A stretch of 43,041 nt of DNA, from contig JAJFKF010000034.1 of assembly GCA_021773365.1 (NCBI GenBank), forward strand, positions 1 through 43,041, in the 5' to 3' direction. The translations under genes and the position numbers were made by a program. The notes under the pieces are model-generated. The model saw nothing but the letters and a program-made list of their open reading frames with translations, was not told the origin of the DNA and did not search any database. Shown in pieces: positions 855 through 42,997 of this stretch (its first letter is position 1; every line of letters starts with the position of its first letter). The stretch comes from Gammaproteobacteria bacterium (GTDB lineage Bacteria > Pseudomonadota > Gammaproteobacteria > Steroidobacterales > Steroidobacteraceae).

Positions 855-3136
855 TTGCGGGTCTTGCCTCCAGCCTTGCGGGCGCTCCCGGAGGATCCGC
901 GCCGGGATTTGGCCTTACCGCCACCAGTCTTTCCAGCGGCTGGCTCCACGGCCATCTCGAAGTCCAGCTGGCGCTCAGCCATGTCCACCCGTTTCAGGCG
1001 CACGGCCACGCGCTGGCCAAGCTGGTAGGTGGTGCGCGTGTCCTTGCCCACCCAGGCGCAAATGGCATTGTCGAGCACGTAGTAGTCGCCGCGCAGGTCC
1101 GAGACATGCACCAGACCGTCAACCTGCAGATTGGCCAGCTGCACGAACACGCCAAAGTCCACCACGCTGGTGATCACCGCCTCGAACTCATCGCCCACAT
1201 GCGCACGCATGTAATCGCACTTCAGGTACGCCATGACATCGCGCGAGGCGATGTCCGCACGCCGCTCCTTCGTCGAGCACTCTCCGCCCAGCCGCTGCAT
1301 GTCCTCGACTGAATACGGATAGTCACGTTTGTTCGTACGGCACACCGCATGGCGAATGGCCCGATGCACCAGCAGGTCAGGATAGCGGCGAATGGGCGAG
1401 GTGAAGTGGGTGTACTCGGCCAGGCCCAGACCAAAGTGACCGATATTCACCGACTGGTACACCGCCTGGGGCAGCGAGCGAATGAGCAACGTTTCAATGA
1501 AGGACGCGTCGGGGCGACCGGCAATGAGTTTCACCACCTGCTCAAGCTCACGGGTGCCGATACGCTCCGGAAAGCGCACTCCGATACCCAGGGCGCGCAG
1601 CATGCGCTGCAACTCGGTGACCTTGCGCTCCTCCGGCTCGCCGTGAACGCGGTACAGGCTGTTCAGACGCCGCTTGCCGATGAAGCGGGCCGCCTCGATG
1701 TTGGCGGCAATCATGCATTCTTCGATCAGCCGGTGTGCGTCGTTGCGTGCGTGCACATCGAGTGCGGCGACGTTGCCCTCGCCTGTCAGTCGCACCTTGA
1801 TTTCGGGCGAATCGAAATCCAGCGCACCGCGCCGCGTCCGCGCCTGGCGCAGCACGCGATAGGCCGCGTGCAGATGCTCCAGATGCGCCAGCAGATGCGA
1901 GTAGCGGCTGCGCAGCTCCGCGTCCTGCCCGATCAGCATTGCGGCTACCTGTGTATAGGTCAGGCGGGCCGCGGAACGGATGACCGCCTGACAGAAGCGG
2001 GCGCGCTTGACCTCACCGTCCGTATCCACACGCATCTCGCACACCAAAGCCAGACGATCGACCTCCGGCTTCAGCGAACACAGCTCATTCGACAGCGCCT
2101 CGGGGAGCATGGGCAGAACACGGTCTGGAAAGTAGACGGAGGTGGCGCGGGTCAGTGCTTCGCGGTCAAGCGCACTGCCTATACGCACGTAGTGGCTGAC
2201 ATCGGCAATGGCGACCAGCAAGCGCCAGCCGCCACGCACCGGTTCGCAGTAGACCGCGTCGTCGAAATCGCGCGCGTCATCGCCATCGATGGTGACCAGC
2301 GGCGTCTCGCGCAGATCGTCGCGGTCCTGCAGATCGTCTGCCGCGACCGTTGCGCCCCAGCGGGCCGCTTCGGCCAGCACATCCTCCGGCCACTCACGCG
2401 GCAGGTTGTGCGTCACGATGGCCAGCTCCGCTGCCAGGTCGGCTGCACTTTTGGCATTCAGCACCCGCACCACCTGCGCCATCGGTGTACCGCGGCCCCG
2501 GCCCGGCTTGCCGCCGCCGTCGGCCAGACGAACGACGACCAGATCGCCATGCTTCGCCTCGCCGCGATGTTCTGCCGGCACCATCATCCGCATGCGGAAG
2601 CGCGGATCCTCGGGCATCACAAAACACATCTCGCCGGCATCCTCAAAGCGGCCGGCCAGCTCCCGCACACCCCGCTCGAGTACCTCCAGCACCACGCCCG
2701 AACGGCGCCCGCGGCCGTCATCGGCGCTCACCCGCGCCCGCACGCGGTCGCCATGCATGACATCGCGCATTTCACGCTGCTCGACGTGCAGATCCTTCGA
2801 GCCGTCCTCCGGCGCCAGCCAGCCGTAACCATCGCGATGGGCGCTGATCGTGCCGGTCACCTCGCCGAAATCATCTGCCGGCGCATAGCGATCGCGGCGT
2901 TTACGCTGCAGCTGGCGGTCGCGCGCCATGGCGCCGAGACGCTTGTCAAGCGCATCGACCAGTGCGCGTTTGCGCACCCCGAGCCGTCGGGCCAGATCCT
3001 GCACATCCAGGGGCTCTTCAGCTGCCCTCAGCTCATTGAGAATCAGTTCGCGACTGGGAATGGGCTCTTCGTAGCGGCCCTGTTCGGCGGTGTACTGGGG
3101 ATCGCGGTCCTGCCAGCTGGGTTTGCGTGGGGTCAT
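851..3136 (-). CDS. rnr: Ribonuclease R
   Basis: Processive 3'-5' exoribonuclease that degrades structured RNA and takes part in rRNA quality control and trans-translation. The 761 residues show the complete domain order: winged helix (about 26-77), cold-shock-like OB domain (about 92-140, GEVTGTISAHRDGYGWLAPE), catalytic RNB domain with the metal-binding motif TIDGDDARDFDDAVY near residues 283-297, S1 domain (about 650-730, ending in DGLVHVSDL), and a lysine/arginine/glycine-rich basic tail. The tail and the N-terminal helix-turn-helix separate RNase R from RNase II. It lies downstream of purA in the conserved order, but a plus-strand tRNA-Leu and its promoter sit between the two genes, so rnr probably has its own promoter in 3137-3304. 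Confidence 0.96.
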   Translation of the reverse strand: MTPRKPSWQDRDPQYTAEQGRYEEPIPSRELILNELRAAEEPLDVQDLARRLGVRKRALVDALDKRLGAMARDRQLQRKRRDRYAPADDFGEVTGTISAHRDGYGWLAPEDGSKDLHVEQREMRDVMHGDRVRARVSADDGRGRRSGVVLEVLERGVRELAGRFEDAGEMCFVMPEDPRFRMRMMVPAEHRGEAKHGDLVVVRLADGGGKPGRGRGTPMAQVVRVLNAKSAADLAAELAIVTHNLPREWPEDVLAEAARWGATVAADDLQDRDDLRETPLVTIDGDDARDFDDAVYCEPVRGGWRLLVAIADVSHYVRIGSALDREALTRATSVYFPDRVLPMLPEALSNELCSLKPEVDRLALVCEMRVDTDGEVKRARFCQAVIRSAARLTYTQVAAMLIGQDAELRSRYSHLLAHLEHLHAAYRVLRQARTRRGALDFDSPEIKVRLTGEGNVAALDVHARNDAHRLIEECMIAANIEAARFIGKRRLNSLYRVHGEPEERKVTELQRMLRALGIGVRFPERIGTRELEQVVKLIAGRPDASFIETLLIRSLPQAVYQSVNIGHFGLGLAEYTHFTSPIRRYPDLLVHRAIRHAVCRTNKRDYPYSVEDMQRLGGECSTKERRADIASRDVMAYLKCDYMRAHVGDEFEAVITSVVDFGVFVQLANLQVDGLVHVSDLRGDYYVLDNAICAWVGKDTRTTYQLGQRVAVRLKRVDMAERQLDFEMAVEPAAGKTGGGKAKSRRGSSGSARKAGGKTRK

Positions 3137-3234
3137 CGTTCTAATCCTGTCATCAGATCAAGGTACCACGGGGCCGGTGTTTCGCGAATGATCCGCGCAG
3201 GATCAGCGAAGAACAGCCAATACGGCGCCGTCAA

Positions 3235-3263
3235 TTGACAATACCCTGCCTGCTCCGTAGAGT
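3235..3263 (+). promoter_or_regulatory. Sigma-70 promoter of tRNA-Leu
   Basis: A perfect -35 box TTGACA (3235-3240), a 17-base spacer, and a -10 box TAGAGT (3258-3263) are followed by a GC-rich discriminator (GCGCCGCC). The predicted transcription start is near 3270, about 35 bases before the tRNA. GC-rich discriminators are typical of stable-RNA promoters under stringent control; that part is inference. Confidence 0.75.
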
Positions 3264-3304
3264 GCGCCGCCTTCCTGCAGCGGGGTCGATCGTACCCCGA
3301 TGAT

Positions 3305-3389
3305 GCCCAGGTGGCGGAACTGGTAGACGCGCTGGTTTCAGGTATCAGTGGAGAGATCCGTGGAGGTTCGAGTCCTCTCCTGGGCACCA
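3305..3389 (+). tRNA. tRNA-Leu, anticodon CAG
   Basis: An 85-base class II tRNA. The acceptor stem GCCCAGG pairs with CCTGGGC, followed by discriminator A and an encoded CCA. The anticodon stem CTGGT/ATCAG encloses the loop TTCAGGT, giving anticodon CAG (reads CUG). The long variable arm and the T arm with GGTTCGAGTCC fit leucine. It is transcribed against its neighbours rnr and purA, an insertion into an otherwise conserved gene order, and has its own promoter at 3235-3263. Its CCA end lies only 12 bases from the purA stop codon. Confidence 0.97.
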
Positions 3390-3401
3390 CCCCTTTGCAA
3401 T

Positions 3402-4908
<1,507 letters not shown>

Positions 4909-21378: not shown

Positions 21379-22089
21379 ATGCTAGAAATCACGAATCTGA
21401 CCAAGCGCTACGGTTCCTTCACCGCGGTCGACAATGTCAGCTTCCGCGTCCAGCCCGGCGAGGTACTGGGATTTCTCGGCCCCAACGGGGCCGGCAAGTC
21501 CACCACCATGCGCATGATCGCCGGCTTTCTCTCGCCCACGGCCGGCAGCGCCCGCATCTGCGGCCATGACATCGAAGACGAACCGCTGCAGGCCAAGCGC
21601 TGCATGGGATATCTGCCCGAAGGGGCGCCGAGCTACGGCGAGATGACCGTGCGTGGATTCCTGGATTTCATCGCCGACATACGCCAGCTCACCGGCACGC
21701 ACAGGAGCGAGCGACTGCAGAAGGTGATCGGGCAGCTGCAGCTGCAGGCGGTGCTGGAGCAGAGCGTGGAGACTCTGTCGAAGGGCTTCCGTCGTCGTGT
21801 CGGCGTGGCGCAGGCCATCCTGCACGATCCGCAGGTGCTGATCATGGACGAACCCACCGATGGCCTGGATCCGAACCAGAAGCACGAAGTGCGCACGCTC
21901 ATCAACGCCATGGCGCCGGGCAAGATCATCGTCATCTCCACGCATATCCTTGAAGAAGTCGATGCGGTGTGTACCCGCGCCATCATCCTGGCGCGCGGGC
22001 GTATCGTGGTCGATGAAACCCCACAGGAACTCGCCGCGCGCGCGCCATCCGGTCGGCTCGACGATGTGTTCCGCACCGTGACCGCCTGA
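21379..22089 (+). CDS. ABC transporter ATP-binding protein, GldA-like
   Basis: Nucleotide-binding subunit of an ABC-2 type export system. The 236 residues contain Walker A GPNGAGKST (about 36-44), a Q-loop-equivalent region GYLPEGAPSYGEMTVRGFL, the signature LSKGFRRRVGVAQAI (about 133-147), Walker B VLIMDEPTDGLD, and the H-loop STHILEEV. The sequence type matches the GldA/YhhG-like ATPases that pair with GldF/GldG modules. It is the first gene of a four-gene operon reaching 25976. The 179 bases upstream hold an A-rich stretch and an ACCGGT-N5-ACCGGT repeat but no promoter I can define. Confidence 0.92.
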   Translation: MLEITNLTKRYGSFTAVDNVSFRVQPGEVLGFLGPNGAGKSTTMRMIAGFLSPTAGSARICGHDIEDEPLQAKRCMGYLPEGAPSYGEMTVRGFLDFIADIRQLTGTHRSERLQKVIGQLQLQAVLEQSVETLSKGFRRRVGVAQAILHDPQVLIMDEPTDGLDPNQKHEVRTLINAMAPGKIIVISTHILEEVDAVCTRAIILARGRIVVDETPQELAARAPSGRLDDVFRTVTA

Positions 22090-22133
22090 CCTGTGGCCTG
22101 CTGATCGAAGCGCATCAACCGGAGAACGCCGCC

Positions 22134-22865
22134 TTGCACAACGTTGCCGCCATTTTCCGTCGCGAACTGAAAAGCTACTTCGCCACTCCGCTGGCCTATG
22201 TCTTCATCGTCATATTCCTGCTGCTCGCCAGCGTCCTCACCTTTTATATGGGCGGGCTGTACTCGCGGGGGCAGGCGGACCTGGAGCCGTTCTTCGGCTT
22301 CCACCCCTGGCTGTATCTGTTTCTTGTTCCCGCCGTGGCCATGCGGCTGTGGGCGGAGGAGCGCGCCAGCGGCAGCATTGAGCTATTGATGACGCTGCCC
22401 GTCACCCTGGGGCAGGCGGTGTGGGGCAAGTTCCTGGCCGCCTGGTCCTTCATCGGCATCGCGCTCAGCCTCACCTTCCCCATCTGGATCACCGTCAACT
22501 ACCTCGGCGATCCGGACAACGGCGCCATTTTTGCCGCCTACCTCGGCAGTTTCCTCATGGCCGGCGGGTTCCTGGCCATCGGCACCTGCATGTCGGCGGT
22601 GACGCGCAATCCGGTTGTTGCCTTCATTCTCGCCGTGGTGCTGTGCTTCGCCTTCACCGTCAGCGGCTCCCCCATGGTGCTGGATGTATTCCAGGCGATT
22701 GCGCCGGCCATTGCCGACGCCGTCGCCTCGCTGAGTTTCCTCTCACATTTCCAGTCCATCTCCCGGGGCGTGATCGACCTGCGCGACCTGGTGTACTTCG
22801 GGCTGCTCATCGGCTTCTGGCTCACGGCCACTGGCATTGTCCTGGACATGAAGAAGGCCAACTGA
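22134..22865 (+). CDS. ABC-2 type transporter permease, GldF-like
   Basis: Inner-membrane subunit of the ABC system. The TTG start at 22134 has a GGAG Shine-Dalgarno nine bases upstream and gives 243 residues. About six hydrophobic segments can be seen: near 20-40 (LAYVFIVIFLLLASVLTFYM), 58-72, 97-121, 131-153, 158-180 and 215-237. The stretch RLWAEERASGSIELLMTLPV after the second segment is a hallmark of ABC-2 permeases. The GldG-like gene starts one base after its stop. Confidence 0.9.
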   Translation: MHNVAAIFRRELKSYFATPLAYVFIVIFLLLASVLTFYMGGLYSRGQADLEPFFGFHPWLYLFLVPAVAMRLWAEERASGSIELLMTLPVTLGQAVWGKFLAAWSFIGIALSLTFPIWITVNYLGDPDNGAIFAAYLGSFLMAGGFLAIGTCMSAVTRNPVVAFILAVVLCFAFTVSGSPMVLDVFQAIAPAIADAVASLSFLSHFQSISRGVIDLRDLVYFGLLIGFWLTATGIVLDMKKAN

Positions 22866-22866
22866 C

Positions 22867-24795
22867 ATGGCACAGAAACGCAAAACCTACGGCGGCGCGG
22901 CCCTGGCGCTGTTCGCACTGATCTTCATCGGCCTCATCATGCTGTCGAACTATGCGCTGCGTGGGCTGCGCGTGGACCTGACGGAGAACAACCAGTACAC
23001 CCTGGCCGAGGGAACACTGAACATCGTCAAGAACATCGACGAGCCGATCAACCTGTACTTCTACTTCTCCGGCAAGGCCGGCGAGAAAGCACCGTACCTG
23101 AAGATCTACGCCACCCGTGTACGCGAGCTGCTCGAGGAACTGGCCAGTCGCTCGCGCGGCAGGATCCGCCTGCAGGTCATCGATCCGGAGCCGTTCTCCG
23201 AGGACGAAGACCGCGCCAGCGAACTCGGCCTGTCGCCGGTGCCCATTGGCGCTGGCGGAGACACCATGTATTTCGGCCTGGCGGGCACCAACTCCACCGA
23301 CGGCAAGGCCACCATCCAGGTGTTCCAGCCGGACAAGGAAGAATTTCTCGAATACGACATCGCAAAACTGATCGTGCAGCTCAGCCATCCGGACAAACCA
23401 ACCCTGGGCCTGCTGAGCACCCTGCCCATGAGCGGAGGCTTCAATCAGCAGACCGGCCAGCAGACTCCCGGGTGGTTCATCCTCACGCAGCTGCGCCAGC
23501 TGTTCGAGATCGAAACCCTGAGCACGTCGGCGGAACGCATCAGCGACGATATCGACGTGCTGATGCTGGTGCATCCGAAGAACCTCAGTGATCGCACGCT
23601 GTTTGCCGTGGAGCAATTCATCATGCGTGGCGGCCATGCGCTGATCTTTGTCGATCCGCGCGCCGAGGCCGATTCGCCCAGCCCGACGGGCGGCCAGCAG
23701 GATGCCTACGCCGCCATGCTGGCGCCGCGCCATTCCAGCCTGGAGAAGCTCTTCAAGGCCTGGGGCGTGCAGTTCGACACCGGGCAGATTGTCAGCGACA
23801 TGCAGTTGGCGCTCGAGGTGCAGTCACCCTCGGGCATGCCGGTGCGCCACCTCGGCTACCTCGGGCCCAGGGAAGACAATCTCAGCAACGATGATGTGGT
23901 CACCGGCGGGATCGGGCAGATCAACCTCGCCACGCCCGGCAGCTTCAGCCTCACCGACAAATCACAGCTGACACTCGAGCCGCTGATCAGCACGGGCGCA
24001 GAATCCGGCACCATCGCCGCCGAGCGCTTCATGATGCTGAGCGACCCATCATCGCTGCGCAATGATTTCAAGCCAGCCGGCGGCAGCCGTGTTCTGGCTG
24101 GCCGCCTGACCGGCACGATCACCACGGCCTTCCCGCAGGGCGCACCGGCGGCATCCACCGACGACGGGGATGACGAAGCGCCCGCACCCGCCGCCGACTC
24201 CACATCCGCGCTACAGACCTCGCAGCAATCGGTAAACGTCATTCTGGTGGCCGACACCGACCTGCTCAGCGACATGATGTGGGTGCGCCGCCAGTCCTTC
24301 TTCGGCCAGACCATGGCGCAGGCCTTCGCCTCCAACGGCGACTTCGTCATGAACGCCGTGGACAACCTGGGTGGCAGCAGTGATCTGATCAGCATTCGTG
24401 GCCGCGCCAGCTTCGTGCGCCCCTTCACGCGAGTCAACGAGATCAAGCTGCAGGCCGAGGAACGCTTCCTGGCCAAGGAACAGGAGCTGGAACAGCAACT
24501 GCGCAGCACCGAGGAGAAACTCGGCGAGCTGCAGTCCGGCCGCAGCGATGCCGCTTCCGCCTTCATCATGAGTCCCGAACAGGAAGAGGAACTACGTCGC
24601 TTCCAGGATGAGAAGCTGCGCGTCCGCAAGGAACTGCGCGAAGTACGCCACGGCATGGATCGTGAGATCGACCGGCTGGGACGGAATCTGCGCATCATCA
24701 ACATCGTGCTGATGCCGTTGCTGCTGACCGGTGCCGCGCTCGGCATCGTGCTGTGGCGCCGGCGGCGGCGCCGACAGCGGGAGGCGCGCTCATGA
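22867..24795 (+). CDS. GldG-like ABC transporter auxiliary protein
   Basis: A 642-residue membrane-anchored protein with the GldG architecture. It has an N-terminal transmembrane segment (about 13-33), and a large periplasmic region opening LTENNQYTLAEGTLNIVKNIDEPINLYFYFS. An alpha/beta domain with Asp-rich motifs such as DVLMLVHPKNLSD and ALIFVDPRAE follows. An acidic, Ala-rich low-complexity linker occurs near 425-445, a predicted coiled coil near 535-605 (many E/K/R/Q heptads), and a C-terminal transmembrane segment with an Arg-rich end (about 614-642). It stands in the order ATPase-permease-GldG-DUF4340 widespread in non-gliding proteobacteria; the substrate is not known. Its stop overlaps the next start as ATGA. 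Confidence 0.85.
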   Translation: MAQKRKTYGGAALALFALIFIGLIMLSNYALRGLRVDLTENNQYTLAEGTLNIVKNIDEPINLYFYFSGKAGEKAPYLKIYATRVRELLEELASRSRGRIRLQVIDPEPFSEDEDRASELGLSPVPIGAGGDTMYFGLAGTNSTDGKATIQVFQPDKEEFLEYDIAKLIVQLSHPDKPTLGLLSTLPMSGGFNQQTGQQTPGWFILTQLRQLFEIETLSTSAERISDDIDVLMLVHPKNLSDRTLFAVEQFIMRGGHALIFVDPRAEADSPSPTGGQQDAYAAMLAPRHSSLEKLFKAWGVQFDTGQIVSDMQLALEVQSPSGMPVRHLGYLGPREDNLSNDDVVTGGIGQINLATPGSFSLTDKSQLTLEPLISTGAESGTIAAERFMMLSDPSSLRNDFKPAGGSRVLAGRLTGTITTAFPQGAPAASTDDGDDEAPAPAADSTSALQTSQQSVNVILVADTDLLSDMMWVRRQSFFGQTMAQAFASNGDFVMNAVDNLGGSSDLISIRGRASFVRPFTRVNEIKLQAEERFLAKEQELEQQLRSTEEKLGELQSGRSDAASAFIMSPEQEEELRRFQDEKLRVRKELREVRHGMDREIDRLGRNLRIINIVLMPLLLTGAALGIVLWRRRRRRQREARS

Positions 24796-25976
24796 GATCG
24801 CGCAGGAGTCTGCTGGTATTGCTGGTGATCGCGCTGCTGGCACTGGGCGGCGCCCTGCTGATCGCGCAGCTGCGCACCACCTCACCAGACGATGCCGTCG
24901 GCACAGCCGTGTTGCCGGCACTGTCCACTCATCTGAACGATGTCAGCGAGATACGTGTCCTTACCGCCGGCAACACGCCCTTTGTCACGCTCAGCCGCTC
25001 GCCGGAAGGCGATCACTGGCAGGTGGCGCAGCGCGACGGCTACCGCGCCGATTTCGGCAAGTTGCGCGAGTTCCTGCTGAAGCTCTCCGAGCTGAAAGTC
25101 GTGGAAGTGAAAACCGCCAACCCGGCCAACTACGCACAGATCGGCGTGGAGGATGTGGACGGCGCCGGGGCCACCGGCAAGCGCATCGAATTCGCCGGCC
25201 TGCCCTCACCCCTGGCCCTGATCCTCGGCAAGAACAGCAGCTTCGGCGGCCACTATGTGCGCGTCGCCGGTGCCGCACAAAGCTATCTGGCCAAGCCGCA
25301 GATCACGGTCTACAGCGATCCGCAGATCTGGCTTGATCGCAGCCTGATGGATACCCCTGTCGAGCGCGTACAGGAAGTGCGGCTGGTCCTGGCGCACGGT
25401 CCGGCTGCGGAACGCAGCTACACCGTCACCCGCAAGGTGCGCGAACAAACCGATTTCACCGTCGAGGGTCTGCCACGTGGGCGCAAGCTCACCTACTCCG
25501 GCGTGGCCAATGCCAATGCCGGCACGCTGGCCGGCCTGTCCTTCGAAGATGTGCGCCGTGCCGCACCGGAACAGGAGACGGCCTGGAAAGGCGCTGCACG
25601 CGCGGAATATCGTCTGTTCGACGGCACGGTGATCACGCTTGGCGGCCGCACGGAAAAGGCTGGTGATGCTGCTGAGGAGTTCGCTCCCGACAGGCACTAC
25701 GTGCGCATCGAGGTGAGCTTCGATGAGGCACAGTACACGCGTTTCCATGTTGAGCTCCCCGCCGCCACGACCGACGACGCCGCTGACGGCAAGCCCGATG
25801 AACCGCAGGTGACGGCAGAAGAGCCGGGGAAGCCGGCCTTCGGCGCCGATCCGGCGCAAGTGCGCGCCGAGGTACAGGCATTGCAGGAGAAGCTGCGGGG
25901 CTGGGTGTTCGAACTGCCGGCCCACAAATACGAGGCCATCTTCCGCCCGCTGGACCAGCTGCTGGAAAAGGACTGA
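24792..25976 (+). CDS. DUF4340 domain-containing protein
   Basis: A 394-residue protein with one N-terminal hydrophobic segment (about 6-26, LLVLLVIALLALGGALLIAQL) and a long, mainly beta periplasmic part made of two related repeats, as in DUF4340 proteins (the first around DGYRADFGKLREFLLKLSELKVVEV). The C-terminal third has an acidic linker (about 330-365) and ends VFELPAHKYEAIFRPLDQLLEKD. It overlaps the GldG-like gene by 4 bases, so it belongs to the same complex. Its stop lies 33 bases before the lasso leader peptidase gene, so the two units may share a transcript. Confidence 0.85.
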   Translation: MRSRRSLLVLLVIALLALGGALLIAQLRTTSPDDAVGTAVLPALSTHLNDVSEIRVLTAGNTPFVTLSRSPEGDHWQVAQRDGYRADFGKLREFLLKLSELKVVEVKTANPANYAQIGVEDVDGAGATGKRIEFAGLPSPLALILGKNSSFGGHYVRVAGAAQSYLAKPQITVYSDPQIWLDRSLMDTPVERVQEVRLVLAHGPAAERSYTVTRKVREQTDFTVEGLPRGRKLTYSGVANANAGTLAGLSFEDVRRAAPEQETAWKGAARAEYRLFDGTVITLGGRTEKAGDAAEEFAPDRHYVRIEVSFDEAQYTRFHVELPAATTDDAADGKPDEPQVTAEEPGKPAFGADPAQVRAEVQALQEKLRGWVFELPAHKYEAIFRPLDQLLEKD

Positions 25977-26009: not shown

Positions 26010-26720
26010 ATGCAAAAGTACCTGCTCTCCCCTCACGTCCACCTGTGCTTCACCGACGATCACGCGGTGCTGCTCGATCTGCGCCGCGACCGCTACATCG
26101 GCCTCGGCCCGCAGCAGACTGTCGCCCTGGCGCACCGCATCGAGGGCTGGCCTGACACCCGGGCTTGCGCCCCGCCAGCCGCACGGACAAACAACGACGA
26201 GGCGCTCAGACGCCTGCTGTCGAATGGCATGCTCACCACCGATGCGGCCATCGGCAAACCGGCGCAGCCGCCAACCCTGCCGCGCAGCGAATCCACCGTG
26301 ACTGAAGATGAGCTGGAGGCACGACCCAGCCCCACCGCGCGGCAGATCCTGCGCTATCTGCGAGCCGCATTGACCGCGCGCCTGGCGCTGAAGTGGCGCC
26401 CCATTGCAACCGTAGTGGCTCGGGCACAGGGCCGCAAACAAAGGCGGGCGCACCTGCGGTCGACAGATCCGGAACAGCTGCGCCAACTCACCGCGGCCTT
26501 CCTGTATCTTCGCCCGCTGCTCTTCGGCGCCCGTGATGAGTGTCTGTACGATTCCCTGGCACTGGTGGAGTTCATGGCGCTGCACGAGGTGTATCCGGAC
26601 TGGGTGTTCGGCGTGCAGACCCGACCCTTCCTGGCGCACAGCTGGGTGCAGGATGGCGCGGCGGTGTGCAACGACACGCCGGAGTACGTTCGTCGCTTCA
26701 CACCCATCCTGGTCGTGTAG
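26010..26720 (+). CDS. Lasso peptide leader peptidase with fused recognition domain (B protein)
   Basis: Binds the precursor leader and cuts it off so that the core can be cyclised. The 236 residues combine two domains. Residues 1 to about 85 (YLLSPHVHLCFTDDHAVLLDLRRDRYIGL) are the PqqD-like recognition element (RRE/B1). Residues about 110-236 are the transglutaminase-like cysteine protease (B2, Lasso_prot/PF13471 type). The catalytic triad is C178 (DECLYDSLAL), H210 (FLAHSWV) and D222 (VCND). The spacings 32 and 12 equal those I recall for the McjB triad. The fusion is typical of proteobacterial lasso loci. The Shine-Dalgarno is weak. The cyclase gene follows after 7 bases. Confidence 0.93.
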   Translation: MQKYLLSPHVHLCFTDDHAVLLDLRRDRYIGLGPQQTVALAHRIEGWPDTRACAPPAARTNNDEALRRLLSNGMLTTDAAIGKPAQPPTLPRSESTVTEDELEARPSPTARQILRYLRAALTARLALKWRPIATVVARAQGRKQRRAHLRSTDPEQLRQLTAAFLYLRPLLFGARDECLYDSLALVEFMALHEVYPDWVFGVQTRPFLAHSWVQDGAAVCNDTPEYVRRFTPILVV

Positions 26721-26727
26721 GCAATCC

Positions 26728-28587
26728 GTGTTCCGTTATCTCGCATTGATATGGGACCCGGCGCAGCAGCAGCCACAGGCTACGACCGCAGAGCTGACGG
26801 ACCGCATGACCACCGCATCCTGGCAGCGCGCCGTTTCGCACCCGGGGCTGGCAGTCTTTCACAGCGGTTCGCGGCAGGGCAGCAGCGCGCCACACCTGCT
26901 GCACGCCGGCGCGGGGGCGGTGCTCGGCCGGCTGTTTGCCGGCGGCGCGGCGGCGCCGACACAGATCAGCGCGTGGGAAACAGACGCCATCGTGCGCAGC
27001 GGTGGTCAGCGCCTGGTCGATGGTTACTGGGGACGGTATGTCGCCTTCATCCGCGATGCGACCCGACAAACGACACGGGTACTGCGTGACCCCTCCGCGG
27101 GAATGCCCTGCCTGCACGCGCGCTTCGGGGGCGTGCAGGTCTTCTTCTCCAATATGGAGGATGCCCTGGCCCTCGGACTCGGCCCCTTCCCCGTCGACAT
27201 GTCCTATCTCGCCGCACACCTGTGCCAGCAGATTCTCGAGGTCCACTCCTCGGCACTGCAGGGCGTCGCGCGGGTGCTGCCGGGCGAGTGCGTCGAAATC
27301 GGGCGCGGAGGTATCGCCAGGCATCTGCTGTGGAATCCACTGCATGTTGCCGCCGGGAGGCCCCTGGAAGACCCCGCTGCCGCCGCCGTCACGCTGGGAC
27401 ACACCGTCCGTGAATGCGTTCATGCCTGGGCCAGCGGCCATGACAGCATCGTGCATACCCTCTCCGGTGGTCTCGACTCCTCCATTGTGCTCGCCTGCCT
27501 CCGCGATGCTCCCGCGCGACCGCGACTCGCCTGCGTCAACTACCACTCCCCCGGCGCCAACTCCGATGAGCGCGGCTTTGCCCGCCAGGTTGCGGAGCAG
27601 GCCGGCTGCGAACTGACCGAGCGCGAGCGCGACCCCTCCATCCGGCTCGAGCAACTGCTGCAGGCACCGCGCTCGGCCTATCCGGTCAACAATCGCTACT
27701 ACCTGGAGAACAGCGCCTGGGAGGCGGGATTCGCGGCCCGGCGGCAGGCCACCGCCCTGTTCTGCGGCGAAGGCGGCGATCAGATTTTCTACCAGGCCCG
27801 GGTGCGCTTCGCCGCCGGTGACTACCTCCTGCGCCGTGGCAGATTGCGAGGCCTCGGACCGGGGCTGTTCCGCGTGGCCCTCGATGTCGCACGGCTCGAT
27901 CGACTGTCCGTCTGGACCGTACTGGCAGATGCATTGGCGCAGGGCTGGCTGGGCCGGCGCTGGCAGGTGCAGTCTGATATCGGGCGCTATCGCAAACTGG
28001 TTCCGGACACGGTGCTGGCGCAGGTCAAATCCGACACGCGCTTCCACCATCCGGCATTTCAGCACCCGGCGCGCAGTATCGGCAGCGGCAAGCGCTGGCA
28101 TGCCTACCAGCTGCTGTTCCCGGCCATGGACTACTACGATCCGCTCGGGATGATCAACGACGCGGAACGCATCACACCCCTGGCATCGCAGCCGGTGCTG
28201 GAGCTGTGTCTGCGCACCCCGATCGATGTCCTGACCACCGGCGGCTGGGACCGTGCCGTGGCGCGGCGCGCCTTTCGCCCGCATCTGCCCCGGCAGGTGG
28301 CCCTGCGCCGCACCAAGGGCGGACTGGACGCGTATTTCAAGAACGTGGTGCTGGCCAACATGGACTTCGTGCGCCCCTTCCTGCTGGAAGGCCGTCTGGC
28401 AGCGCAGGGACTGCTCGATCGCGCCCGGCTCGAGGCTGTGCTGTCAGGCGAACCGAACCGCATCGGCGCAGATACCACCGAACTGTTCGACTGCGTGAAC
28501 CTCGAGGCCTGGCTGCATCGCTGGGAACGGCCGGCTGCTGGCCCGGCGATCCACCAGCCCATCGACGACATGGGCAGCGCAACATGA
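26728..28587 (+). CDS. Lasso peptide macrolactam synthetase (C protein, asparagine synthetase family)
   Basis: Adenylates the side-chain carboxyl of the ring Asp/Glu and joins it to the N-terminal amine of the core, locking the tail in the ring. The start is the GTG at 26728, seven bases after the B stop; the frame further upstream runs inside B. The 619 residues have an N-terminal glutaminase-like domain that lacks the catalytic Cys2 (VFRYLALIWDP), which argues against a true AsnB. The ATP-pyrophosphatase loop is SGGLDSS at residues 246-252, and the synthetase domain includes FCGEGGDQIFYQ and RRTKGGLDAYF. Size and layout match lasso cyclases such as McjC. Its substrate is most likely the precursor at 31757-31900. 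Confidence 0.93.
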   Translation: MFRYLALIWDPAQQQPQATTAELTDRMTTASWQRAVSHPGLAVFHSGSRQGSSAPHLLHAGAGAVLGRLFAGGAAAPTQISAWETDAIVRSGGQRLVDGYWGRYVAFIRDATRQTTRVLRDPSAGMPCLHARFGGVQVFFSNMEDALALGLGPFPVDMSYLAAHLCQQILEVHSSALQGVARVLPGECVEIGRGGIARHLLWNPLHVAAGRPLEDPAAAAVTLGHTVRECVHAWASGHDSIVHTLSGGLDSSIVLACLRDAPARPRLACVNYHSPGANSDERGFARQVAEQAGCELTERERDPSIRLEQLLQAPRSAYPVNNRYYLENSAWEAGFAARRQATALFCGEGGDQIFYQARVRFAAGDYLLRRGRLRGLGPGLFRVALDVARLDRLSVWTVLADALAQGWLGRRWQVQSDIGRYRKLVPDTVLAQVKSDTRFHHPAFQHPARSIGSGKRWHAYQLLFPAMDYYDPLGMINDAERITPLASQPVLELCLRTPIDVLTTGGWDRAVARRAFRPHLPRQVALRRTKGGLDAYFKNVVLANMDFVRPFLLEGRLAAQGLLDRARLEAVLSGEPNRIGADTTELFDCVNLEAWLHRWERPAAGPAIHQPIDDMGSAT

Positions 28588-28670: not shown

Positions 28671-28760
28671 GAGGTGGATCCTGGGATTGGACCAATTTGG
28701 GAGCCCGCAAGGGTTGAAGACGCATGGAGACTAAGGATATGCGATACCGGGAAGCCGGAC
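28671..28760 (+). promoter_or_regulatory. GGA-rich leader of the receptor gene with a small palindrome
   Basis: Eight GGA triplets start at 28676, 28684, 28689, 28700, 28726, 28735, 28750 and 28757, around the start codon of the TonB-dependent receptor (28724). GGA in exposed loops is the core of CsrA binding sites, and csrA lies in this cluster. An 11-base palindrome, ATTGGACCAAT (28686-28696), lies within the same stretch and could be a protein or structure signal. No promoter boxes are recognised in the 136-base gap after the cyclase gene. Function is inferred. Confidence 0.35.
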
Positions 28761-31714
28761 CCGGCGCACTACTGCTGTGCATCGCCACCATCGCAGCCAC
28801 ATTAATGCCCCGTGTCGACGCGCGCGCAGCCGAACCGCTGCCCGTGTTCGACATCCCGGCCGGCGAGGCACAATGCACTCTGCTGCAGTTCTACCTGCAA
28901 TCGCGGGTGCAGCTGCTGTACCTGTCCGACGCCGTCAGCGGCGTACGCACGCGGGCAATCCATGGCGCCTACTCGCCCGCCGCTGCACTGAGCAGGATGC
29001 TGGCTGGCACCGGCCTGAGCTTTGAATTCGAGTCCGACAGCACGGCGGTCATTCGCGTTTCCGCGCAATCCCTTTCCGACTCCGCCAGCTATCAGGGCGG
29101 GGGCACGGAACGGGCAAGCAGCTTTGGCAAGAAAACAGAGCCGGGGGATCCCGTACGCCCCGCACTCAGGCCCGTGGACGAATTACTGGTCACCGGCAGC
29201 TATATTCGTGGCGTACTGGATGTAGCCTCGCCTCTGCAGGTGGTCGACCGCAAGCAAATGAAGGGCACTGCCTACGCTACGGTGCAGGACGCACTGCGCA
29301 ATATGCCAGTCAATGCCGGCGCAGCGCAGGGCGAAGTTTTCGGCGGCGCCGGCAATCATGCGCGGGGCTCGGCGGCAAACCTCAGGGGACTGGGCGCCGG
29401 CGCCACGCTGGTACTGATCAACGGCCGCCGCCAGCCGCAGGCCGGCCTGCAGGCCGATTTTGTCGATGTGTCAAACATTCCCTGGAGCGCGGTGGAGCGC
29501 ATCGAGGTGCTGCCGGACGGCACCTCGGCCCTGTACGGCTCGGACGCCATCGCCGGTGTGGTGAATATCATCATGCGCGACACCCTGGAGGGCATGGAAA
29601 CCCAGCTGCGGCACGGCGCCGCGGCGGACGGGGCAGTGGAAACGCTGGCCGCGCAGCTGTTCGGCCATGACTGGGGCAGCGGCAAGTGGCTGTTCGCCTA
29701 TCAGTACTCAAACAGAACAAGGTTGGCCGCAGCCGACCGCGCCTACACGGCCGACACCGACAAGCGCGCCTTGGGCGGCAGCGACTACAGCAGCTTCAGG
29801 AGCAATCCCGGCAACATTCTGGATTTTGCGACCCTGGCACCGGTACTGGCCATTCCGCGCGGTCAGGATGGCACAAGCCTTGGCTCACAGGACCTGCTCC
29901 CTGACACAATAAACACCGGCAACGCGTTCGCCACCCGCCAGCTCCTGCCCGACAAGGAGATACACAGCGCGTTCCTGACAGCATCACAGCAAGTCGGCAC
30001 CGGCCTTGACCTGTTCGGCGAGGCGCGCTACAGCCGCCGTCGGGTAAATTGGCAGGGCTCGGCAGAGGAGCGGTTGTTGCTGGTTCCGCCCAGCAATGCG
30101 TTCTTTGTCGACGGCATCGACCGGACCCGACCGCTGCTTGTCGCCTACAGCTTCCTCGACGATCTCGGACCTCTGCGCAATGCCAGTACTGCAGAGAATT
30201 TCGGTGCGGCCGCCGGACTTCGGGCGGATATTGCCAGTTGGCAAACAACTCTGTCGGGCGCCTATGTGAGAGAAGCGTTGCGCTATACGGGGAGCAATTT
30301 CGTCGACACGCTCGCGCTGAGCGCAGCGCTGAGCGACCCCAGCCCTGCAACGGCATTCAATCCCTTCGGCGAAGGATCACACACCAACCCGGCCACTCTG
30401 GAAAGCATCCGCGGCGCCCAGCGCAATCGGGCAGCATCGCAAATACTATCCGCCAATCTGGTGGCCGATGGCCCGCTGCTGGACCTCCCAGCCGGCATAT
30501 TGAAGCTGGCGGTAGGAGCCGAACATCGTCGCGAGCGATTCAACCGCACACTGGGCGGACCGGCGCAGAATTACCTGCGTCGAATCTCTGCGGCCTTTGC
30601 CGAGTTGTCCGTACCACTGATCGGCAATCCCGACGACTCGCGGGATACACCGCAGCTGGAGCTGTCAGTTGCCAGTCGCTATGAGCGATACAGCGATTTC
30701 GGCAGCACCTTCAATCCGAAGATCGGGATGCTGTGGATACCGCACGAGTCGATCAAGCTGCGCAGCAGCTGGGGCACTTCCTTCAAGGCGCCAAAACTCA
30801 TCGAGCTGTACGACAGCTCGCAGAATGCAGCCGCATTCACCCTGCTCGCCGATCCACTCTCCCCCGGGGGGCAATCCATCGTGCTGGTTCTCCAGGGCAA
30901 CAACCGGGATCTGAACGAGGAAAGAGCCACGACCTGGACGGCAGGCATCGACTTCACCCCGAGGGTACTGAGCGGACTGACTGTGTCGCTCACCGCCTAT
31001 TCCATCACTTATGAGGACCAGGTCATCCTGCCTGCCTACCTGTCGCCGCTCGAGATTCTGCTGCAGGAGGAGCGCTGGAGCGCCGCAATCGAACGCAATC
31101 CCACTCGGGCCCAGGTCGATCCCATCTGCGACGCACCATTGTTTTTTGGTTCGCGCGAGCAATGCCGGACAACACTGCCGACCGCGCTCATCGACTATCG
31201 CCTGAAGAACCTTGCCGCAACCACGACTCGCGGCCTGGATGTGCGGCTTGAACATGCGTTGCCGACGTCCATGGGTATTTTCAACGTCAATCTGAACGGC
31301 GGCTACATCTTCAGCTTCGAACAGGCCTTCACTCAGACCTCTCCCGCTGCCGAGTTGGCCGGCCTGACCAACAACCCCTCGAAGTTCCGCCTGCATGGCA
31401 CGGTGGAATGGAGTGAACGCGGATGGAAGCAGCCGGGGCTGGGCGTCAGCCTTACTCTGGATCACGCAGCGGGCAGCCGCAACCCAGGCAGCAACTCACG
31501 CCCCACGGTGAGCAGCTGGACGACGACCGATCTGCAGCTGCGTTATCGCACGAGACACCAGGAAGCATGGCATGACAATCTGGAGCTGTCCCTGAATGCC
31601 GTCAACGTCTTCGACGAAGACCCCCCGTTTGTCGATCAGCAATGGGGCTATGACTACCTCAATGCCGAACCATTTGGCCGGGTCATCAGCCTGTACGTGC
31701 AAAAGAGCTGGTAA
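28724..31714 (+). CDS. TonB-dependent receptor with FecA-type signalling domain
   Basis: Outer-membrane transducer. The 996 residues contain a signal peptide (about 6-36, ending VDARAAE), an STN/secretin-TonB domain at about 42-112 (FDIPAGEAQCTLLQFYLQS), a linker, a TonB box near 151-157 (VDELLVT), and a plug domain (about 165-285, NLRGLGAGATLVLINGRRQP, VLPDGTSALYGSDAIAGVVNI). A 22-strand-type barrel follows, ending in the aromatic residue required for insertion (YVQKSW). The STN domain marks receptors that signal through FecR to an ECF sigma factor, both encoded at 32098-33703. In lasso loci such receptors are thought to import or sense the peptide. An ATG at 28739 is an alternative start; base composition looks less GC-rich than in its neighbours. 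Confidence 0.93.
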   Translation: METKDMRYREAGPGALLLCIATIAATLMPRVDARAAEPLPVFDIPAGEAQCTLLQFYLQSRVQLLYLSDAVSGVRTRAIHGAYSPAAALSRMLAGTGLSFEFESDSTAVIRVSAQSLSDSASYQGGGTERASSFGKKTEPGDPVRPALRPVDELLVTGSYIRGVLDVASPLQVVDRKQMKGTAYATVQDALRNMPVNAGAAQGEVFGGAGNHARGSAANLRGLGAGATLVLINGRRQPQAGLQADFVDVSNIPWSAVERIEVLPDGTSALYGSDAIAGVVNIIMRDTLEGMETQLRHGAAADGAVETLAAQLFGHDWGSGKWLFAYQYSNRTRLAAADRAYTADTDKRALGGSDYSSFRSNPGNILDFATLAPVLAIPRGQDGTSLGSQDLLPDTINTGNAFATRQLLPDKEIHSAFLTASQQVGTGLDLFGEARYSRRRVNWQGSAEERLLLVPPSNAFFVDGIDRTRPLLVAYSFLDDLGPLRNASTAENFGAAAGLRADIASWQTTLSGAYVREALRYTGSNFVDTLALSAALSDPSPATAFNPFGEGSHTNPATLESIRGAQRNRAASQILSANLVADGPLLDLPAGILKLAVGAEHRRERFNRTLGGPAQNYLRRISAAFAELSVPLIGNPDDSRDTPQLELSVASRYERYSDFGSTFNPKIGMLWIPHESIKLRSSWGTSFKAPKLIELYDSSQNAAAFTLLADPLSPGGQSIVLVLQGNNRDLNEERATTWTAGIDFTPRVLSGLTVSLTAYSITYEDQVILPAYLSPLEILLQEERWSAAIERNPTRAQVDPICDAPLFFGSREQCRTTLPTALIDYRLKNLAATTTRGLDVRLEHALPTSMGIFNVNLNGGYIFSFEQAFTQTSPAAELAGLTNNPSKFRLHGTVEWSERGWKQPGLGVSLTLDHAAGSRNPGSNSRPTVSSWTTTDLQLRYRTRHQEAWHDNLELSLNAVNVFDEDPPFVDQQWGYDYLNAEPFGRVISLYVQKSW

Positions 31715-31756: not shown

Positions 31757-31900
31757 TCAGCAAATACACATCCCGGCACCGCCGTCGGGCCCGCCGATAA
31801 AGCCACCCTTGGTCTCTTCGGAAACCTTTCCCAGATCCACGAACTCAGCGTCCACGCTGTTCTCTTCCGTCTCAGTCAAGTTGATGGTTACCGATTCCAT
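31757..31900 (-). CDS. Lasso peptide precursor (A peptide)
   Basis: A 47-residue gene with a good Shine-Dalgarno (AGGGGA, 7 bases before ATG). The leader (residues 1-31) is acidic and ends VDLGKVSEETK, matching the proteobacterial lasso leader pattern LGKxSxET-x seen, as I recall, in astexin-type precursors. It carries the key Thr at position -2 of the cut. The core (residues 32-47) is GGFIGGPDGGAGMCIC. Gly1 would be the ring N-terminus and Asp8 the only acidic residue in the core, giving an 8-residue macrolactam and an 8-residue tail. C45 and C47 (core 14 and 16) are unusual and could form a disulfide or bind metal. It runs opposite to B/C and is separated from them by the receptor gene. Confidence 0.88.
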   Translation of the reverse strand: MESVTINLTETEENSVDAEFVDLGKVSEETKGGFIGGPDGGAGMCIC

Positions 31901-31917
31901 AATCAATTCCCCTGTGT
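31898..31917 (-). promoter_or_regulatory. Precursor ribosome binding site with overlapping GGA motifs
   Basis: On the minus strand ACACAGGGGAATTGATT precedes the ATG. The Shine-Dalgarno AGGGGA lies inside an ACA-rich GGGGA context resembling the CsrA consensus ACARGGA, and a second GGA begins at the G of the ATG (ATGGAA). CsrA bound across the two would block ribosome entry. That is a hypothesis prompted by the csrA gene in the same locus. Confidence 0.4.
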
Positions 31918-32000: not shown

Positions 32001-32097
32001 TCCCCCTGCACCAGCGCACCGGGCTTACCCGACAAATCTTTCTCAAGGGGGGGTTGCCCCAGGGCGGGTCTTAGGGTGCAGGAGCTGAAAATTATTC

Positions 32098-32667
32098 ATG
32101 GGTAGCATCACTTACGTCATGCCGGGGCGCGGCAGAGCGCCTGACTGGATCAGCCGGTTGCACCAGGACCATGGCGCCGCGCTGCAGAAGTTTCTCGCGC
32201 GCATGACCGGCAGCCCGCAGGCGGCCGAGGAGATCGCCCAGGAGGCGTACCTGAAGCTGCACCGGCTTTGCCGGCCCGAGGAAGTGACCTGCCCGCGGGC
32301 GCTGCTGTTCGACGCCGCCGCGAAATTGGCGATGACTTATCTGCGGCGCAAGCGCACCGAGGCGAGTGTGACTTTGACCGGCGAGGCCTCCGCTGCCGCC
32401 GAGCAGGTGGCGGATGACCTGGCACGGCCCGAGCGGCGCGCCGCCGCCGAAGAGGCGCTGCGCGCCCTGTCGCGGATAGTCGATGAGCTGCCCGCAAACC
32501 TGCAGGCGCCATTCGTGATGCGCTACGTGCGGCAGATGTCGCGGCAGGACATTGCCGCCGCGCTGGGTATCAGCGTCAACGCGCTCGAACAACGCCTCAC
32601 GCGCGCACTGGCGCAGTGCCGGGCACGACTTTCGACAATGGGGCTGGCCTGGCCAGCACTCGACTGA
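32098..32667 (+). CDS. ECF-type RNA polymerase sigma factor, FecI-like
   Basis: A 189-residue two-domain sigma factor that directs RNA polymerase to a small regulon. Sigma region 2 spans about 18-82 (HQDHGAALQKFLARMTGSPQAAEEIAQEAYLKLHRL, then the LRRKR end). Region 4 spans about 117-172 (LPANLQAPFVMRYVRQMSRQDIAAALGISVNALEQRLTRAL), with the helix-turn-helix in the second half. AGGAG lies 13 bases before the ATG. FecR follows after 22 bases, and the STN-bearing receptor is nearby, so this is a FecI/FecR/FecA-type surface-signalling set. Likely targets are the divergent precursor and the receptor. Confidence 0.93.
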   Translation: MGSITYVMPGRGRAPDWISRLHQDHGAALQKFLARMTGSPQAAEEIAQEAYLKLHRLCRPEEVTCPRALLFDAAAKLAMTYLRRKRTEASVTLTGEASAAAEQVADDLARPERRAAAEEALRALSRIVDELPANLQAPFVMRYVRQMSRQDIAAALGISVNALEQRLTRALAQCRARLSTMGLAWPALD

Positions 32668-32689: not shown

Positions 32690-33703
32690 ATGTCCATGAA
32701 CGAAGATTCGGTTGCAGCCATCGGTATGCAGGCCGCTCGCTGGATCGCGCAGCTGGATGCAGGCGAACTCGACGCTACAGCTCTGGAGGAGTTCCATCGC
32801 TGGCTGGAAGCCGATGAGCGGCATGCCCATGAATTCCGCGCGCACCTGGCTGTGGCGGCACTGGCCGGCGAACTGCCGCGACAGCTGCCGCTTGCCGGGC
32901 AGGCGCCGGCGGCGCAGGCCTCTGCCCGCTCGCGCGGCAGCCGGATAGCTGGTCTTGCGGTTGCCGCCTCATTGCTCACCGCGGCGGGCGTCTGGTGGAT
33001 GCTGCAACCGGTTGCGCCGGTGGCCGGTACCTACGCGACCGCAACCGGCGAAGCACGGACTGTCACCTTCACAGACGGCAGCGTGGCTTATCTCAACACG
33101 CGCACCCGTCTGCGCTGGACCGGCAGCGACACCGACCGTCTCGTGGAACTGCAGGAAGGTGAGGCACTGTTCGATGTGGCGCATGATCCGCTGCGCCCCT
33201 TCCGCGTCTTCGTCAACAACAACGAGGTGCGCGTACTTGGCACCCGTTTCAACATCTATCGCCGCAAGGACGGCGAGGTGCGGGTAACGGTCATCGACGG
33301 CAGCGTCGAGGTCATGGAGAAAGCCCAGCAGGACGGACATCCGGCCTGGAGCCGCCAGCTCACCGCCAACCAGCAGGTGGCCTTCAGCAACATTGGCCTC
33401 ACGCGCGACGTACACGATGTCAATGCACTCAACGTAGCCAAGTGGCGCGAGGGCGTGCTCGAACTGACTGGCGAGCCGCTCTCGGAAGTGCTCGATGAGC
33501 TGACTCGCTATACCGATCGACGGATTCTCATCAAGGATCCACGCCTTGCGCAACTGAGGCTCGGGGGAGCCCTCAGTACGCGGGATGTACGGGCAGCCCT
33601 TGTCCGTATCGAGAAGCTCGCCCCGATCGCCGTGACAGAGCACGGCGAGACATTCACTTTGGACTATCGACCCGACGAAGGGTCCGCAGCACGCGAGGAG
33701 TAA
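32690..33703 (+). CDS. FecR family anti-sigma factor / signal transducer
   Basis: Inner-membrane protein that holds the ECF sigma factor in check and passes on the receptor signal. The ATG at 32690 has a GGAGG Shine-Dalgarno at 32678-32682 and gives 337 residues. An N-terminal cytoplasmic helical region (about 10-60, [35 protein letters not shown]) is the sigma-binding DUF4880 type. A single transmembrane segment lies at 86-105. The periplasmic FecR domain follows (about 112-212, [22 protein letters not shown] ... [10 protein letters not shown]). The C-terminal domain (about 255-330) is STN-like and would contact the receptor's signalling domain. csrA follows after 4 bases. Confidence 0.92.
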
Positions 33704-33707
33704 ATCA

Positions 33708-33923
33708 ATGCTTATCTTGACGCGACGTTTGAATGAGACGGTGATGATCGGCGATGAAGTGACGGTCACCGTACTGGGGGTCAAGGGTGGTCAGGTGCGT
33801 CTGGGCATCAATGCGCCCAAGGACGTGGCCGTACACCGCGAGGAAGTATATGAGCGCATCAAGGCTGAACAGCAGGGCCTGGCCCACGCCACACCTGGCG
33901 ACCAGGTTTCCGCGACGGGATAA
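33708..33923 (+). CDS. csrA: Carbon storage regulator CsrA (RsmA)
   Basis: Dimeric RNA-binding protein that represses or activates mRNAs by binding GGA motifs. The 71 residues begin with the invariant [24 protein letters not shown] and include the RNA-binding [12 protein letters not shown], with the conserved Arg near position 44. The last ten or so residues are a variable tail. The gene starts 4 bases after the fecR stop, with its GAGGAG Shine-Dalgarno inside the end of fecR, so it is the third gene of the sigma-fecR operon. This is not the usual alaS-linked position of gammaproteobacterial csrA; it may be an additional copy dedicated to this locus, or the only copy. Confidence 0.95.
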
Positions 33924-42980: not shown

Positions 42981-42997
42981 GGGGGGGGGGGGGGGGG
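42981..42997. repeat. Seventeen-base G homopolymer near the right edge
   Basis: Seventeen consecutive G follow 34 bases after the pepA stop, and only 44 low-complexity, G-rich bases come after it. Such a run at a contig end is more likely a sequencing or assembly artefact than biology. No gene is seen in 42947-43041. Confidence 0.7.

Follow-up and report, generated by a model that had tools for sequence, protein, structure and literature searches.

A predicted lasso peptide precursor beside a TonB-dependent receptor in Steroidobacteraceae, and its possible role as the receptor's ligand

A short gene reversed between a receptor gene and a sigma factor gene in the window (the whole stretch of 43,041 nucleotides analysed here, from a soil-type bacterium) very probably codes for a lasso peptide precursor. 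The precursor would be matured by the products of two neighbouring genes, B and C, and the peptide would act as a receptor ligand, signalling via an STN domain and a FecR-like protein to the sigma factor; we give this reading a probability of about 0.88. Taken by itself, the proposition that the peptide is the ligand of the adjoining receptor is one towards which we lean, with less assurance. We rate the predicted peptide as one that fits a known kind of lasso, while the arrangement of its locus, with a receptor and a sigma pair, no isopeptidase and a reversed precursor gene, appears to differ. The family bears on the function of receptor-associated lasso peptides in Proteobacteria: with a receptor and a sigma relay, no isopeptidase in the locus, the precursor gene beside the receptor gene even where the enzymes lie elsewhere, and relatives with the receptor only, it separates these parts from one another, and few genes would be needed to examine the ligand hypothesis.

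The precursor gene, A, occupies positions 31757-31900 of the minus strand and codes for 47 amino acids before its stop, with the translation MESVTINLTETEENSVDAEFVDLGKVSEETK as leader and GGFIGGPDGGAGMCIC as core. The ATG is preceded, at a distance of 7 nt, by the ribosome-binding site AGGGGA (31908-31913, minus strand). The leader, of 31 residues (31808-31900, minus strand), was delimited from the sequence and from the alignment with relatives; it ends in LGKVSEETK and has threonine at position -2. The core (31760-31807, minus strand), whose cleavage and ring closure are predicted, would form a macrolactam between Gly1 and Asp8, the sole acidic residue that it contains, with Cys14 and Cys16 in the tail. 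The sequence-only reading that had singled out this gene, its ribosome-binding site and these three residues is confirmed from the sequence, and the macrolactam mass that it had computed was reproduced when calculated again (1392.56 Da with free thiols, 1390.55 Da with one disulphide). The element ATTGAACATAAT, found upstream of A in 6 of 12 loci, is absent from the window; it had been considered as a conserved precursor promoter and was dropped as an element of the window, for whose gene A no promoter is claimed.

Three lines of evidence support A as a lasso precursor: family models, a model built without it, and conservation in relatives. The Pfam model of subterisin (PF24178) gives it 29.8 bits for a cut-off of 27 (E 6e-7), and 28.3 bits when the whole genome of 3.97 Mb is searched, where A is the single match listed at E<=10 and lies above the cut-off; the same search applied to 14 controls gives matches in 5, none of them above the cut-off. 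The curated cut-off of the NCBIfam model of the benenodin family (NF033522) is missed, with 30.4 bits for a required 33, and none of the 15 genomes searched exceeds it; a second, weak match of this model in the window's genome lies on contig C142 (12.3 bits, E 0.8). The gene is thus like those of subterisin and benenodin in the end of its leader (LG...T-x-G), in Gly1, in an Asp within reach of a ring and in its score above the Pfam cut-off, and differs from them in its NCBIfam score below cut-off and in the Cys-Ile-Cys end of its core. Subterisin and benenodin clusters carry an isopeptidase.

A further model was made from the precursors of ten relatives, the window's own reading frame being left out to avoid circularity. 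It recovers A with 20.4 bits (E 2.7e-5). At E<=10 its list for the window has one further reading frame, scoring 3.5 bits, and in ten scrambled or reversed windows no frame goes beyond 9.2 bits. A better precursor elsewhere, which had been proposed as a way to overturn the reading, was not found: with this model the one further listed frame of the window has those 3.5 bits, and PF24178 has its single listed match in the genome at A. A search of the sequences of the PDB with A returned one match, with E 9.6. A gene of only 47 codons could in principle be a chance open reading frame, yet it scores above the Pfam cut-off as the single match in its genome, it is recovered by a model that had not seen it, and it has counterparts at the same position in 11 related loci, so that we hold the probability of chance to be negligible.

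The two genes expected to mature the precursor are located 3 kb from A and look to be in working order. Gene B (26010-26720, plus strand) encodes a leader peptidase composed of an N-terminal RRE-like domain and a transglutaminase-like cysteine protease, an assignment drawn from NF033537 (NCBIfam lasso B2; 71.6 bits, cut-off 33), from a match of PF13471 and from an AlphaFold model with a mean pLDDT of 92. The catalytic triad Cys178/His210/Asp222, already noticed in the letters, was found in place: in an alignment of the window's protein with 34 others chosen from the 79 named loci, Cys178 and His210 are identical in 35/35, and position 222 is occupied by 30 Asp, 4 Glu and a single Ala. The N-terminal part may well be a leader-recognition domain, as suggested by fold matches of middling quality: residues 2-79 have lasso B1 structures among their closest fold neighbours (best Foldseek E 0.041), at Z 6.1-6.9 in a second fold comparison, where the C-terminal half draws unrelated fungal lectin-protease chains at up to Z 6.4. 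That half has papain- or transglutaminase-like neighbours in the model. Foldseek gave no match of the B model at E<=0.001, and a search of PDB sequences gave a single chance-like one, a ribosomal protein at E 0.37.

Gene C (26728-28587, plus strand) encodes an asparagine synthetase-like macrolactam cyclase with the motif SGGLDS, recognized by PF00733 (98.7 bits, above the cut-off) and by alignment; the NCBIfam cyclase models match it below their cut-offs, NF033561 with 93.2 bits for a required 300. The cyclase lacks the Cys2 of AsnB, because its first codons read GTG-TTC-CGT, and the earlier statement to this effect is accordingly upheld. No glutaminase (GATase) domain of Pfam was reported in C at E<=1, nor any PDB sequence match at E<=0.001. 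By analogy with the families to which these proteins belong, the RRE-like domain of B would bind the leader at LGKVSEET and its cysteine protease would cut after Lys-1, following which C would activate the side chain of Asp8 with ATP and join it to Gly1, the ring of eight residues closing around the tail. The peptide, once released, would bind the FecA-like TonB receptor, whose signal STN and FecR would relay to the sigma factor, and there may also be re-import of the peptide or of its cargo.

Downstream of C comes the TonB-dependent receptor with its N-terminal STN signalling domain (28724-31714, plus strand; PF00593, PF07715 and PF07660 all above cut-off), then A in reverse, then an ECF sigma factor of the FecI kind (32098-32667, plus strand; TIGR02937, 72.2 bits for a cut-off of 42.9) and a FecR-like anti-sigma regulator (32690-33703, plus strand; PF04773 and PF16220, DUF4880, above cut-off). 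An STN-domain receptor, a FecR-like protein and an ECF sigma factor are also the constituents of FecA-FecR-FecI surface signalling, from which the present system would differ in having as its ligand a lasso peptide that its own locus produces. A csrA gene (33708-33923) starts directly after fecR. A run of G with GGTCTTA (32047-32073, plus strand) is a candidate promoter of the sigma gene. Runs of at least five G are found 51-105 nt upstream of the aligned sigma start in 12/12 loci, and a box CATCTA or CATCTT follows in 10 of the 12, being missing in the window and in L041; this is the looser count, since a strict pattern, with a single match in the window (before the sigma gene), recurs in only 4/12 loci.

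A profile search detected no isopeptidase, either in the window or within any of the 11 related clusters, some of which are cut by contig ends. The profile was made of five isopeptidase-like proteins from other loci and detects such a protein in 43 of the 91 sequences; three of the five score 183.4, 52.6 and 40.2 against the 400 bits demanded by the NCBIfam lasso isopeptidase model, thus below cut-off, and the remaining two come from L038 and L039. Searching with single sequences by tblastn was less sensitive and missed the isopeptidase of L033. Those of L061, L067 and L095 sit by a neighbouring second lasso cluster. In the rest of the window's genome the isopeptidase family gives matches below cut-off only, the best with 120 of 400 bits, as is likewise the case in 11/14 controls. 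Nor was an exporter found adjoining the lasso genes of the window, while an MsbA-like one precedes B in L061, L062, L067, L071, L084 and L095. Directly upstream of B, at 21379-25976, there are ABC genes followed by a protein of 407 residues with no NCBIfam match; these ABC genes were considered for the role of exporter gene D and dismissed, because they are GldA-/GldG-like and not MsbA-like as in the relatives. The locus had been described as complete, which holds for A, B and C and not for an adjacent exporter or an isopeptidase. It had also been likened to the astexin type, a label that we abandon because neither an isopeptidase nor an exporter adjoins the genes, whereas astexin-type clusters carry an isopeptidase according to the available part of a review (PMC9266682).

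The comparison with described systems makes this arrangement clearer. A TonB receptor is common to the window and to the isopeptidase-type clusters, such as those of astexin, sphingocin and similar peptides (PMC9266682 and PMC11006600, both in the portions accessible to us), and the clusters with isopeptidase that the former covers, as far as its accessible portion goes, all share a receptor and a sigma/anti-sigma pair, also present in the window locus. Two features set the window apart from them: it has no isopeptidase, and its precursor gene does not head an A-B-C operon but follows the receptor in reverse orientation. The rubrinodin cluster has, in the same portion of PMC9266682, a TonB receptor and a FecI/FecR-like pair, as in the window, and an exporter and an isopeptidase together. 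Metanodin is a lasso peptide from Steroidobacterales, the same order as that of the window, and its precursor gene had been left unannotated by antiSMASH; its cluster is unlike that of the window in being a colinear A-B-C with an isopeptidase gene and a core beginning with Asn1 (PMC12670498, in extracts). The selection used in that study, as given in those extracts, would exclude the window's gene order, because colinear clusters were retained. In the mostly open-access literature that was covered, bioRxiv excepted and the sources being seen in part, we found no description of the order B-C-receptor-(A reversed)-sigma-FecR, which is not to say that it is absent from print.

This order is that of a family. 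The scan of named genomes came to 79 loci, which represent the 80 best among 355 confirmed candidates; some of the closest bear the name Steroidobacteraceae in their titles. Eleven of the 79 loci (L041, L042, L047, L048, L050, L053, L055, L058, L061, L067 and L095) share with the window the order and direction of B, C, receptor, sigma and FecR, and, the window included, A is reversed between receptor and sigma in 12/12, so that the order B-C-TonB receptor-(A, reversed)-ECF sigma-FecR is kept in all 12 complete loci. L049 has it too, on a contig which ends behind the receptor. In four loci with B-C-sigma-FecR (L043, L045, L046, L099) no receptor or precursor match was found in the stretch examined; these loci go with L194-L197 as cases where B-C-sigma-FecR are in one place while receptor and precursor are paired on a different contig of that genome. 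The wider family was taken as the Steroidobacteraceae, judged by its named members, and many of its genomes are MAGs. A search with a model of B finds some lasso B in 55 of 217 family genomes and the window's type in 24, the type being set by our own cut at 260 bits, above a gap that extends down to 225.9, with part of the first-look candidates scored. The precursor model matches at E<=0.01 in 31/217 (29 strong, 2 weak); the two weak ones (G156 and G158, the latter of another lasso type) were left out of the precursor count. Among 369 genomes drawn across the class it has one match, the window itself. Strong matches to this model are therefore confined, among the genomes searched, to the window's bacterial family, the Steroidobacteraceae. 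This restriction holds for strong matches, because the model also matches, more weakly, further lasso precursors in the named loci, the best being L102 with 25.6 bits, L108 with 20.7 and L105 with 20.4.

It had been proposed that the reading would fall if relatives that keep the enzymes had lost the gene or its key residues. As far as B of the window's type is concerned, 22/24 genomes have a precursor with Thr-2, Gly1 and Asp8/9, and in the remaining two, G141 (L071) and G145 (L044), the contig ends at most 170 bases past C; a receptor of the window's clade was not found in either. The receptor adjoins 27 of the 29 strong precursors, the two others (L167, L179) being cut by contig ends, and in G111, G119, G134 and G135 a receptor-A pair is found on a contig different from that of B-C-sigma-FecR. 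We conclude that receptor and A form a pair that stays together.

Within this family, the core of the window is the most atypical intact member, with one ring residue fewer and a Met-Cys-Ile-Cys end. Most intact relatives have a core of the form GGxxGxKxDxGxG in which W or F comes next and position 9 is Asp, L047 (GGIFGYKVDSGLGWQYY) being a typical member with a ring of nine; L041 (GYLSGLAYDGGYWWWG) and a few others deviate from the pattern. All 22 intact precursors have Thr-2 and Gly1, and Asp stands at position 9 in 21 of them and at position 8 in the window. The core of 16 residues with a ring of eight, as first proposed, therefore stands as a reading of the window's sequence, set against a ring of nine in the 21 others. 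Among the 22, the window alone has a core with cysteines, where many relatives end in W-Q-Y-Y. A frameshifted aromatic tail was looked for at the core's end; the other two frames, inspected by eye, show nothing resembling the relatives, and the idea was given up. Class IV lassos (LP2006, pandonodin, felipeptins) would be alike in their two tail cysteines if a disulphide forms in the window's peptide, with the difference that Cys14 and Cys16 are only two positions apart and that their disulphide is putative. The Cys-Ile-Cys end would allow the binding of a metal or a strained disulphide; that it actually binds copper, zinc or another soft metal seems to us quite improbable.

This atypical core, with its shorter ring and its tail, means that threading is not assured. 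C might cyclise the core without the product being kept threaded, which would yield a branched-cyclic peptide (lariat). The reason to consider this is that the aromatic tail residues of most relatives, W-Q-Y-Y or similar, are replaced by Met, Cys and Ile, and bulky plugs are needed in class II lassos (PMC9266682, in its available part). Met or Ile could still plug a ring of only eight residues, a tail disulphide could lock it, and B and C look intact, so that we regard a lariat as unlikely. The departure of the core from the family consensus, together with the existence of decaying loci in relatives, could also be taken as a sign that the window's locus is in early decay, with A open and no functional peptide made. 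In the window, however, the frames of the three lasso genes and those of receptor, sigma and FecR are open, and Thr-2, Gly1 and Asp8 are kept as are the motifs of B and C, which leaves this as a distinctly improbable account, less so only than chance. A threaded lasso remains our preferred reading.

The changes of codons between relatives give mixed evidence over five pairs. Counting synonymous and non-synonymous changed codons in the core with its stop, we have 4/0 for L048/L050, 1/0 for L048/L055, 3/0 for L050/L055, 5/2 for L047/L053 and 0/2 for L061/L067; for the whole precursor, the figures are 11/8, 3/5, 10/7, 8/12 and 12/9 for the same pairs. The leader varies freely between its start and its recognition end.

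Genomes without an intact B-C bear on the role of the receptor. Seven (G101, G114, G122, G124, G126, G127, G138) have a strong precursor and no B above 260 bits. The ring Asp or the reading frame is lost in 4/7 of them (G114, G122, G126, G138) against 0/22 (Fisher p 0.0015), where the seven are not independent, G126 and G138 sharing one frameshift, which leaves at least three separate lesions. G101 lies on a contig too short to show its state; G124 keeps the Asp, with B in pieces and the receptor split over two contigs; G127 keeps it too, with a core that ends early; and in G122 B is still an open frame of 225 codons, which the profile matches in three pieces, C being mostly deleted. The clade of the window's receptor, defined by our own cut at 1038 bits plus two receptors split over contigs, is present in 32 of the 217 genomes. 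A and B accompany it in 22 of these, 8 are without intact B-C and 2 (G101, G113) are at contig ends, G113 having no A and the place of its B-C beyond the covered contig. In G114, G122, G126, G127 and G138 there are remnants of C and mostly of B, and the receptor frame is uninterrupted over the part that the contig covers. In G121 and G128 neither A nor any remnant of B-C of the window's type was found, a different lasso B-C being nearby, and in G121 the receptor match spans residues 303-996 only. Between G126 and G138 dN/dS is 0.26 for the receptor, 0.15 for sigma, 0.17 for FecR and 0.52 for a C remnant of 73 codons; between L058 and L049, which are not known to have lost genes, the receptor gives 0.22. 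This would fit purifying selection on the receptor after the loss of B-C, a result which is suggestive only, because the C remnant is short and the pair a single one. Among the loci examined, L187, L188, L189, L190/L198, L192/L200, L202 and L203 keep receptor, sigma and FecR, with lasso genes of the window's type broken or lost.

It is because A and the receptor are paired, because the ring Asp or frame is lost together with B-C, and because the receptor is retained, that we see the peptide as the probable ligand. A receptor open in eight genomes without intact B-C suggests a ligand that is sensed or imported again, whether for signalling, for metal uptake or for both. The specificity of the receptor is deduced here from gene order and from patterns of loss, and the receptor-only genomes could mean another ligand. 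Indeed, the persistence of the receptor in those eight genomes is what would be expected if receptor, sigma and FecR served an unrelated ligand, a siderophore for example, and were mere neighbours of the lasso genes; but A adjoins the receptor even where B-C lie elsewhere, and the precursor or its remains are found in 29/32 genomes of the receptor clade, which makes such a fortuitous association unlikely, to about the same degree as the lariat. For receptor-associated lassos of Proteobacteria, the accessible portions of two papers (PMC9266682, PMC11006600) propose siderophore-like roles, with the isopeptidase as the releaser of cargo. Going beyond the peptide as ligand, we may tentatively imagine an isopeptidase-free class of lassos that are secreted and shared between cells, in which producers would sense the peptide or import it again through a dedicated FecA-like receptor with its sigma/FecR pair, and in which receptor-only relatives, their receptor being under selection, would be eavesdroppers or pirates; this is a speculation that we hold to be rather doubtful, although less so than the alternatives just weighed.

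Several other sightings touch on lasso biology. The window's genome has, on another contig of 8271 bases (L030), a second lasso locus, with B at 139-846 followed by C, a TonB receptor and a sigma factor, where a precursor placed before B would fall off the contig end. At 2681-3859 of its minus strand, in a place where an isopeptidase often sits, this contig encodes a TlpA/ResA-like thiol-disulphide protein, with no match in any other of the 91 sequences searched. The same genome has a second, more distant receptor of the window's kind (G000:C102:15125-18061, 766.9 bits). A Woeseiaceae MAG has two precursor-like reading frames (L098:6406-6573, minus strand, and L098:9617-9874, plus strand), with a cysteine in the ring region and a second close to the end of the tail, as in class III lassos. 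In Roseateles, two tandem precursor-like frames are found upstream of B (L060:4366-4717 and L079:5354-5690). Finally, a run of 17 G lies at 42981-42997 of the window, near the end of its contig.
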